From Synechococcus elongatus PCC 11801 (GTDB taxonomy: Bacteria; Cyanobacteriota; Cyanobacteriia; Synechococcales; Synechococcaceae): a stretch of DNA of 64,000 nt. Shown piece after piece: positions 8,775 to 54,272 of this stretch. The stretch lies in the NCBI RefSeq assembly GCF_003846445.2, contig NZ_CP030139.2, positions 372,001 to 436,000 of the forward strand, read 5' to 3'. Position 1 is the first letter of the stretch; each line of letters opens with the position of its first letter. Made by a program: the position numbers and the translations under genes. A model generated the notes under the pieces. That model was not told where the DNA came from. It saw only the letters and a list, made by a program, of their open reading frames with translations, and ran no database searches.

Positions 8775-8806
8775 AAAGGTCCTGTCAGGCTACTAACAGG
8801 ACCTTT
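8775..8806. terminator. Bidirectional hairpin between porin and fasciclin genes
   Basis: Perfect 11-bp inverted repeat (AAAGGTCCTGT / ACAGGACCTTT) with a 10-nt loop in the 102-bp gap between two convergent genes. Short T runs follow on each strand, so it may end transcripts from both sides. Confidence 0.8.
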
Positions 8807-47074: not shown

Positions 47075-47791
47075 TTACGCGGCGATCGCGGGTTCTTGGT
47101 AAGGAACGAAGGTCTTCTTCGTGGCTCCACAGATGGGACAGAACCAATCGTCTGGAATCTCAGCGAAAGGTGTGCCCGGAGCAATCCCTGAATCAGCATC
47201 GCCCACGGCGGGGTCATAGATCATCGAGCACTGCAGACAAATCCATTTCTGGGTTGCTGGATTGGTATCCGCAGGTGCCTTGCTGGCGGCTCCACCGGCC
47301 AAGGCTTGCAGCGCAACACCATACTGCTTGGCGTGGTACTCCTCGATCGGGGTCAAGAGACCAAAGTTTTTAGCGGCTGTCTTGAAGATGCCGGCATGCT
47401 CACGGGATTCTTCCTCCTGTTCTTTGAACTCAGCGGCAGCGATCGCATCTTTCTCCGCCACGGCTTGAGCGTGGAACTCGGGGTACATCGTCGTGTACTC
47501 GTAAGTCTCGCCTTCGATCGCCAGTTCTAAGCAGCGAGCAGCGATTTGCTTCTTCTCCTCCTCGCTGAGGCTGGACGGATCATCGACGACTAATTCGGGA
47601 TGCAGCAATCGGAAATGCGCAAAAGCATGCTCGGTCTCTTGATTGGCCGTCTCCCGAAACAGTTTCGCTAAATCCGCGAGGCCGAGTTTTTTGCAAACGT
47701 CTGCAAAGAAGAGGTATTTGCGGTTGGCCATTGATTCACCCCCGAATGCTGCTTCGAGGTTGGCCAAGGTGACGGGGTTAGAGAGATCCAT
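47075..47791 (-). CDS. Rubrerythrin
   Basis: 238 residues from ATG 47791 ([16 protein letters not shown]); a frame start at 47809 is less likely. N-terminal ferritin-like di-iron domain ([40 protein letters not shown]) followed by a C-terminal rubredoxin domain with CLQC and CPIC cysteine pairs. Rubrerythrins reduce H2O2 to water with electrons through the rubredoxin iron. In cyanobacteria they protect against peroxide. The gene is divergent from a PerR-type regulator and has a promoter overlapped by a perfect palindrome. Confidence 0.95.
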
Positions 47792-47810: not shown

Positions 47811-47846
47811 TTATCTAAGAATAAGTCTTAGATAAAAATTCGTCAA
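47811..47846 (-). promoter_or_regulatory. Promoter of rubrerythrin with PerR-type operator palindrome
   Basis: -35 TTGACG (47841-47846) and -10 TATTCT (47818-47823) with a 17-bp spacer on the minus strand. A perfect inverted repeat TTATCTAAGA, 5-nt spacer, TCTTAGATAA (47811-47835) overlaps the -10 and spacer, where a bound repressor would block RNA polymerase. Binding by the divergent PerR-like protein is inferred. Confidence 0.7.
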
Positions 47847-47934
47847 ACTCAAGAGCAATCTTCTTTCAGTTCCGAGTCCGATTTAGGAAAAAGGCTAGGA
47901 TAAGGGCAACTGAGTGATTCTTGCCCTAGGCACC

Positions 47935-48378
47935 ATGACCGCTACTCCTGTGCTTTCAGCCGATATCCGCGATCGCCTGCAGCAAGCCGGATTGCGGGTG
48001 ACCCCACAACGCTATGCGGTCTATGCCAATTTGCTGAGTCGTCACGATCACCCCACCGTCGAGACCATCCTGCAGGACATCAACCAAGCCTTACCAATGG
48101 CGTCGAAAGCCGCTGTTTATGGTGCACTTTCAGTGCTGCGCGAAGTGGGTCTGATTCGTGAGGTGCTCTTGGAAGAAGGGGTGACCCGCTACGATGCCCG
48201 CACAGAGCCACACCATCATTGCCGCTGCCAAGTCTGTGGCAGTATTCAAGACCTCGACTGGGACGCGATCGCCCCGATCGATCTGAGTCTTTTACCTCCG
48301 GGCTTTCGTCCAGAGCGCTATGAGGTGACTATTTGGGGTCAATGCGAGTCCTGTTCAGCAACAAACGCGATCGCCTGA
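47935..48378 (+). CDS. perR: PerR-type Fur-family peroxide-sensing repressor
   Basis: 147 residues from ATG 47935. Winged-helix N-terminal domain (RVTPQRYAVYANLL) and C-terminal dimer/metal domain. Zinc site: CxxC pairs Cys98/Cys101 and Cys137/Cys140. Regulatory metal ligands line up with Bacillus PerR at a constant +2 offset: Asp87, His93, His95 and Asp106, with His39 (or His37) as the fifth; Asp106 is where Fur proteins have Glu. The same site is oxidised by H2O2 in PerR. It is divergent from rubrerythrin, and the shared spacer carries a palindromic operator, so self- and rbr-regulation is likely. Confidence 0.88.
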   Translation: MTATPVLSADIRDRLQQAGLRVTPQRYAVYANLLSRHDHPTVETILQDINQALPMASKAAVYGALSVLREVGLIREVLLEEGVTRYDARTEPHHHCRCQVCGSIQDLDWDAIAPIDLSLLPPGFRPERYEVTIWGQCESCSATNAIA

Positions 48379-53030: not shown

Positions 53031-54272
53031 TTAATAGCCTGTCGCTTGCAAGTTTTGGAGAAAATCACCGAGTAAATAGAGGGATCCGCAAAAGACGATC
53101 GCTTGCGGATAGGATTGCGCGATCGCGAGTCCCTCGGCCCAATCAGCAGCGGTTGCTGTAATTGCTCCAAGACCTTCTGCCCAAGTTTGCAGTTCTTGGG
53201 GGGCCCAGCAATCATGTTCTGGCACAGGAATGGCAATACAGCGATCGCCCGACCGAATGAGTGTTGCTAGAACCGCTTGCGCATCTTTCGCTCGCAGCAT
53301 TCCCAGCAACCAAGTCACAGACTGATCAGGGAAAAGCTGATCAACGGCCTGACGCAATGCGATCGCAGCCTCTAGGTTGTGCGCTCCATCGATCAGCAGT
53401 TTTCGGCCTTGATAGTCCAGCCATTGCAGGCGACCGGGCCAGCTCGTATTCGCTAAGCCTTGAGCGATCGCTTCATCTTGCAAAATCCAGCCCTGTTGCT
53501 GAAGTTGCCGCAAAATGGCGATCCCGATCGCAGAATTGATGCGCTGCACGTCGCCAATCAGCCCCGACTGGTAGGTTAGCCCTTGACTCTGCCACAGTCC
53601 CGATTCGATGACAGTTGCCGGTTCGATCGCAGTGATGGGTGCTTGTAGGCGATCGGCTTGAGCACGGATCACGGTTTCCGCTTCCGATGGCAGGACGCCC
53701 AAAACAACCGGACAATTTGCCTTCAAAATCCCTGCTTTTTCGGCTGCGATCGCACCCAACGTCGATCCCAAAACCGCTTGATGGTCGTGACCAATGCTGG
53801 TGATCGCCGTGACGAGAGGTTGTGCAACAACATTCGTGGCATCGAGGCGGCCACCGAGCCCGACTTCAATGACAGCGATCTCGAGATCGCTGTCAGCGAG
53901 CACCAGCCAGACGGCAGCTGTTAGCAGCTCAAATGGTGTCAGATCGATGCCATCGGCGGCAGTCAATACGGTCTGGACGGCTTGCAGCAGGCGATCGCTA
54001 CTGACTGGCTGCCCATTGAGTTGCAGGCGTTCGCACCAACTGATCAAGTGCGGCGAGGTGTAGCGCCCGACTCGATAGCCATTCGCCCGCAAGGCTGCAT
54101 CAACAAAAGCGCAGGTCGAACCTTTGCCATTGGTGCCAGCGATATGGACGATCGGTACCTGATTCTGCGGATTCCCCAGCCGCTCCAGCACGTTCAGACT
54201 GCGATCGAGCCCAAGATCAACACCCCGCTGAGCAAATGAACCCAGCAGGCGATCGAGTTCCGCGAGACTCAT
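53031..54272 (-). CDS. folC: Folylpolyglutamate synthase / dihydrofolate synthase
   Basis: 413 residues from ATG 54272, overlapping the TGA of argD (ATGA). P-loop GTNGKGST (46-53), the adjacent GRYTSPHLISWCER omega loop, VGLGGRLDATN and GHDHQAVLGSTLGAIAAEKAGI for metal binding; HNLEAAIA in the C-terminal ligase domain. It adds glutamate to dihydropteroate and to folates. Most residues of the family are visible. It shares the folate route with folE at 17 kb, though the two are far apart. Stop at 53031; the last ~130 bp before the next gene have no other feature. Confidence 0.95.
   Translation of the reverse strand: MSLAELDRLLGSFAQRGVDLGLDRSLNVLERLGNPQNQVPIVHIAGTNGKGSTCAFVDAALRANGYRVGRYTSPHLISWCERLQLNGQPVSSDRLLQAVQTVLTAADGIDLTPFELLTAAVWLVLADSDLEIAVIEVGLGGRLDATNVVAQPLVTAITSIGHDHQAVLGSTLGAIAAEKAGILKANCPVVLGVLPSEAETVIRAQADRLQAPITAIEPATVIESGLWQSQGLTYQSGLIGDVQRINSAIGIAILRQLQQQGWILQDEAIAQGLANTSWPGRLQWLDYQGRKLLIDGAHNLEAAIALRQAVDQLFPDQSVTWLLGMLRAKDAQAVLATLIRSGDRCIAIPVPEHDCWAPQELQTWAEGLGAITATAADWAEGLAIAQSYPQAIVFCGSLYLLGDFLQNLQATGY

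Follow-up and report, generated by a model that had tools for sequence, protein, structure and literature searches.

The rbr–perR locus

The window, by which we mean the whole 64,000-nucleotide stretch of the Synechococcus elongatus PCC 11801 genome that was analyzed, contains two divergent genes separated by a 143 bp intergenic region. The first, rbr (47075..47791, minus strand), encodes a 238 amino acid protein with a rubrerythrin diiron domain followed by a C-terminal rubredoxin domain (Pfam PF02915 and PF00301), a combination that identifies it as a rubrerythrin; its score against the NCBIfam rubrerythrin equivalog model is below the cut-off. In one transcriptome of nitrogen-starved S. elongatus PCC 7942 a rubrerythrin gene was among the most down-regulated (PMC4973221), which shows strong regulation of such a gene and does not indicate the regulator. 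A literature search returned no paper on the present rbr–perR pair, including binding, footprint or expression data.

The second gene, perR (47935..48378, plus strand), encodes a regulator that belongs to the Fur family and is of the Slr1738 type; counted from the ATG, it has 147 amino acids (Pfam PF01475). Its FUR domain scores 74.9 bits against a cut-off of 23.1, which places it in the Fur superfamily, and its closest solved relative is Bacillus subtilis PerR (2fe3, E=1.6e-22). The preliminary description of this DNA had pointed to the PerR-type ligands Asp87, His93, His95 and Asp106 and to two CxxC pairs, and the alignment to B. subtilis PerR bears this out. All the regulatory ligands align (H39, D87, H93, H95 and D106 with H37, D85, H91, H93 and D104), including the Asp, and not Glu, that PerR proteins carry at the last of these positions, and so does the Cys4 structural zinc site, formed here by C98xxC101 and C137xxC140. 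The five regulatory ligands and four cysteines are invariant among the 30 cyanobacterial PerRs of the alignment. In the DNA-binding helix H4, the protein has Gly63 at the discriminating position, which is Asn61 in B. subtilis PerR. The aligned cyanobacterial PerRs vary at this position (Ser in 14, Ala in 9, Asn in 5 and Gly in 2), so that the Asn marker does not define the clade. The NCBIfam PerR equivalog cut-off is not reached (best model NF052545, 93.4 bits against 180); these models appear to be lineage-specific.

Four other Fur-family genes accompany perR in this genome. In our tree, a quick one that carries a long-branch warning between its large groups, the regulators of the perR–peroxiredoxin type separate from Fur, Zur and FurC with an SH-aLRT of 99; the window PerR belongs to this clade, and the four other Fur-family proteins fall outside the group of PerRs with a divergent peroxidase gene. 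Slr1738 itself is absent from the tree, and the Slr1738 type is assigned by the divergent peroxiredoxin gene.

A single-copy palindrome over the rbr promoter

Between the two genes lies a 25-nucleotide palindrome, a predicted PerR-type operator without strand (47811..47835; TTATCTAAGA-ATAAG-TCTTAGATAA). It is a perfect 10-5-10 inverted repeat and is centered on A47823, about which 11 of 12 symmetric pairs are formed, the only broken one being the pair at +/-2 (A47821/G47825). A repeat with arms of at least 10 and a gap of up to 10 nucleotides arose by chance in 9 of 3000 sequences simulated with a first-order Markov model of the perR–rbr intergenic composition. The preliminary description had proposed a motif search of the whole genome; run over its 2.80 Mb in 7 contigs, this search finds the palindrome once, even when 3 mismatches are allowed. 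In the one congener compared (G001), the palindrome is identical in 25 of 25 positions and lies within a 34-nucleotide identical run, while the remaining intergenic alignment is identical in 73 of 124 columns (~59%).

Other repeats were seen in the same DNA. The genome carries HIP1-type GCGATCGC repeats, and the window contains a perfect gapless inverted repeat with arms of 13 nucleotides at 53870-53895 (TGACAGCGATCTCGAGATCGCTGTCA) and a perfect inverted repeat at 8776-8805 (AAGGTCCTGT-N10-ACAGGACCTT).

The rbr promoter, on the minus strand, has a TTGACG −35 element (47841..47846) and a TATTCT −10 element (47818..47823) separated by 17 bp. The palindrome spans the entire −10 element and 12 of the 17 spacer bases. 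Both the repeat and the promoter beneath it thus lie where they had been described before, the repeat exactly at 47811-47835 and the promoter elements at 47846-47841 and 47823-47818. The −10 element and the spacing match those of the mapped promoter of Synechocystis sll1621, which has a −35 of TTGACt, 17 bp and a −10 of TAttcT (PMC3293774). On the other side, a possible −10 element of perR (TAGGAT, 47896..47901, plus strand) lies in a 12-nucleotide block common to the congener; it is weak and has no clear −35.

Since a perfect inverted repeat could also form a hairpin, one may ask whether, instead of serving as a DNA operator, the palindrome works at the RNA level by attenuating or terminating transcription in the rbr leader. 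However, given the conserved −10 element at 47823-47818, the palindrome lies at about −24 to +1 and is therefore mostly not transcribed. It is followed by no T run, and the conservation across genomes described below fits a protein box and not symmetry alone. We consider a role as RNA extremely unlikely.

A conserved box at cyanobacterial perR loci

This PerR is matched at E <= 1e-25 in 175 of 390 genomes of the class, and the upstream DNA of 70 such genes was examined. A box within one mismatch of TNAGAATANTTCTNA is present upstream of perR in 65 of the 70 loci (51 exact, 14 with one mismatch), compared to exact matches in 2 of 1400 shuffled upstream regions. The pattern was derived from about 30 of the 70 loci and the exact counts are therefore partly descriptive; the 40 loci fetched after its definition behave like the first ~30. 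The resulting consensus, TNAGAATA(A/G)TTCTNA, can be read as TNAGAAT-A-(A/G)TTCTNA, a plain 7-1-7 box, and it sits over a constant TTGAC-N17-TATTCT promoter. Among its best-conserved columns are those from −5 to 0 (AGAATA, which is the −10 TATTCT on the other strand, with 64-67 of 67 conserved) and the GTCAA columns of the −35, which in the aligned perR loci keep the same distance with a fixed 17-nucleotide spacing.

The window site is this consensus box with one substitution, a T to G at +2, two bases to the right of the center. Its 7-1-7 core (47816-47830, TAAGAATAAGTCTTA) reads TAAGAAT-A-AGTCTTA, and it differs from the B. subtilis PerR box core, TTATAATnATTATAA. The G at +2 breaks one symmetric pair and thereby creates the apparent 5-nucleotide spacer, so the earlier claim of a spacing unlike the 7-1-7 Fur/PerR box has to be rejected. 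The same claim had implied a truly different 10-5-10 architecture, read by PerR in a new geometry. The fixation of the +2 substitution in both S. elongatus-group genomes would agree with such an architecture, yet in center, core and outer arms the site matches the 7-1-7 and 11-1-11 boxes found in the relatives, and over 23 nucleotides a single base separates the window site (TATCTAAGAATAAGTCTTAGATA) from that of locus L031 (TATCTAAGAATAATTCTTAGATA). A new geometry is thus very improbable. Three other loci (L086, L108 and L113) have a C at +2 and break the same symmetric pair. In our R1 model the window site reaches a modest 14.8 bits, owing to the +2 change.

The box follows the peroxidase gene

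The gene divergent from perR encodes a type-II peroxiredoxin of one family in 62 of the 70 loci, arranged like slr1738/sll1621. It encodes a rubrerythrin in four loci (the window, G001, G343 and G370) and neither peroxidase in the other four. A box is present in 65 of the 66 loci with a divergent peroxidase gene and, within one mismatch, in none of the four without (Fisher p 5e-6, uncorrected for relatedness; two of the box-less loci, L026 and L030, come from one genus). These counts tie the box to the peroxidase gene and not to perR. The operator in the window likewise seems to serve rbr and not perR itself: it is located a good distance upstream of the likely perR promoter, and loci that lack the divergent peroxidase gene also lack the box.

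The four rbr-linked PerRs form one group (SH-aLRT 99) together with those of L026 (G237) and L030 (G163), two loci that lack both a box and a divergent peroxidase gene. This single group is consistent with an rbr linkage that arose once; the rubrerythrin tree, with its poor resolution, speaks neither for nor against this. Searches for the type-II peroxiredoxin family gave no relative at E <= 0.001 in either S. elongatus-group genome. G343 combines a rubrerythrin in the perR-divergent slot with a type-II peroxiredoxin elsewhere (L120, G343:C109:7415), the latter with its own box, TCAGAATAATTCTTA, under TTGACA-17-TATTCT. One possible course of events is that rbr entered the perR-divergent slot, whose box and promoter were kept, whilst the peroxiredoxin gene first moved away with a box of its own, as in G343, and was then lost in the S. 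elongatus group. In an oxygenic phototroph, PerR would thus have been left with one operator and with rubrerythrin as its only target. The chances that this took place appear to us about even.

A proposed peroxide switch for rubrerythrin

We suggest that the palindrome is very probably the operator through which the divergent PerR represses rbr until peroxide releases it, that is, the cyanobacterial perR–peroxiredoxin switch with rubrerythrin in the slot of the peroxiredoxin. The palindrome, its overlap with the promoter, its conservation, the metal ligands and the co-occurrence with a peroxidase gene can all be read directly from the DNA; PerR binding, repression, release by peroxide and the function of the rubrerythrin are inferred. 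A local peroxide switch of PerR and rbr had been supposed from the start; the comparative evidence supports it well, with PerR binding and the peroxide response as its presumed steps. In such a mechanism, a metal-loaded PerR dimer, with structural zinc in its Cys4 site and regulatory iron or manganese on H39, D87, H93, H95 and D106, would sit on the 7-1-7 core, cover the −10 element and spacer of rbr and keep RNA polymerase off. Hydrogen peroxide would oxidize an iron-ligating histidine and PerR would leave the DNA, after which rubrerythrin would be made and the peroxide reduced. The geometry of the rbr promoter, being the same as that of the sll1621 promoter, supports steric repression by metal-bound PerR and release upon oxidation by peroxide. 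Counting against the switch are Gly63 at the H4 position that discriminates PerR from Fur, although cyanobacterial PerRs vary there, the modest R1 score and a box in the genome G020.

The box in G020 raises the option that such sites are read by another protein. There, an rbr promoter of the form TTGACT-17-TATTCT (L194) carries a near-PerR box, TCAGAATAACTCCGA, although the genome encodes no close Slr1738-type PerR; boxes of this kind may therefore be recognized by a different member of the Fur family. With five Fur-family genes in the present genome, the main reader could be one other than the neighboring PerR, most likely the FurC-like protein encoded at G000:C1:763822-764172; in Anabaena, FurC is named PerR (PMC10406281). 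However, the box is tied to loci with a Slr1738-type perR, and it does not resemble the consensus published for FurC of Anabaena, CAAAATCATAACGACTTTG (PMC10406281). In the other three paralogues (Fur, a Zur-like protein and one more) the H4 position is occupied by Arg, a marker of Fur-type proteins (PMC8638967). A main reader other than the neighboring PerR is therefore unlikely.

A different palindrome, AACTCATA-N5-TATGAGTT, was seen upstream of rbr in six genomes of family f2 (L183-L188, in G261, G247, G365, G131, G186 and G320), which are probably Cyanobiaceae-like. Five of these genomes have a single copy, and G261 has a second site with 2 mismatches. Each of the four family-f2 genomes checked has three Fur-family proteins and no close Slr1738-type PerR.

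Comparison with known PerR systems

The closest parallel is the slr1738/sll1621 pair of Synechocystis PCC 6803, which has a Slr1738-type PerR, a divergent peroxidase gene, a TTGAC-17-TATTCT promoter and, between the two genes, an AT-rich motif that responds to PerR (PMC3293774); the same set of features is seen or predicted here. Deletion of slr1738 makes the sll1621 promoter more active, an effect mediated by the AT-rich motif, and the same 2012 study found no consensus among the Slr1738-regulated genes (PMC3293774). The target there is an AhpC/type-II peroxiredoxin whereas here it would be rubrerythrin, and Synechocystis PerR also represses its own promoter (PMC3293774); in the window, the site lies far from the likely promoter of perR. 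In Synechococcus sp. PCC 7002, PerR (SYNPCC7002_A1836) likewise has a very small regulon around a peroxidase gene (PMC4628125, PMC9952342), and its loss derepresses only the peroxiredoxin and thioredoxin reductase genes, viral genes aside (PMC4628125). Its targets are prxI and trxR and not rubrerythrin, and its zinc site also enables it to sense sulfane sulfur (PMC4628125, PMC9952342). In the rbr1-perR-rbo operon of Clostridioides difficile, rubrerythrin is repressed by PerR and released by H2O2 (PMC8546684), as we propose for the window; there the genes form one operon in an anaerobe, whereas here they are a divergent pair in an oxygenic phototroph.

A small regulon in PCC 7002 (PMC4628125) agrees with the small PerR regulon suggested in this genome. 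A box model built without the group of the window gives a single match in G001, the perR–rbr site, and two matches in this genome, the perR–rbr site and one inside an ORF. With E ~0.12 for both perR–rbr sites the whole-genome scan alone is weak, and these matches gain weight only together with their position. A site at C1:2688809 was considered as a further PerR site and rejected: its R1 score is above that of the window box, but it falls within an ORF, and the congener has no counterpart of it. A wider regulon was also rejected, as a loose TNAGAATANTTCTNA search with 2 mismatches gave 58/51 matches against 51/58 for the reversed control, which is no excess. The remaining one-mismatch sites that were inspected fall mostly within ORFs, with L043 as a clear exception and L042 located between large ORFs. 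PADLOC gave no match.

Implications for the S. elongatus group

Control of rubrerythrin by PerR is already known from anaerobes such as C. difficile (PMC8546684), and so is control of a divergent peroxidase gene by PerR in cyanobacteria. What is unusual here is not the spacing of the site but the presence of rubrerythrin in a place that a peroxiredoxin holds in nearly all other cyanobacteria. The comparison allows the PerR box of cyanobacteria, over its TTGAC-N17-TATTCT promoter, to be defined cleanly by sequence. It also predicts that PerR in the S. elongatus group, the model strains included, controls rubrerythrin and little else, and the locus may serve as a tractable example of how an enzyme is exchanged for another while the switch stays the same.
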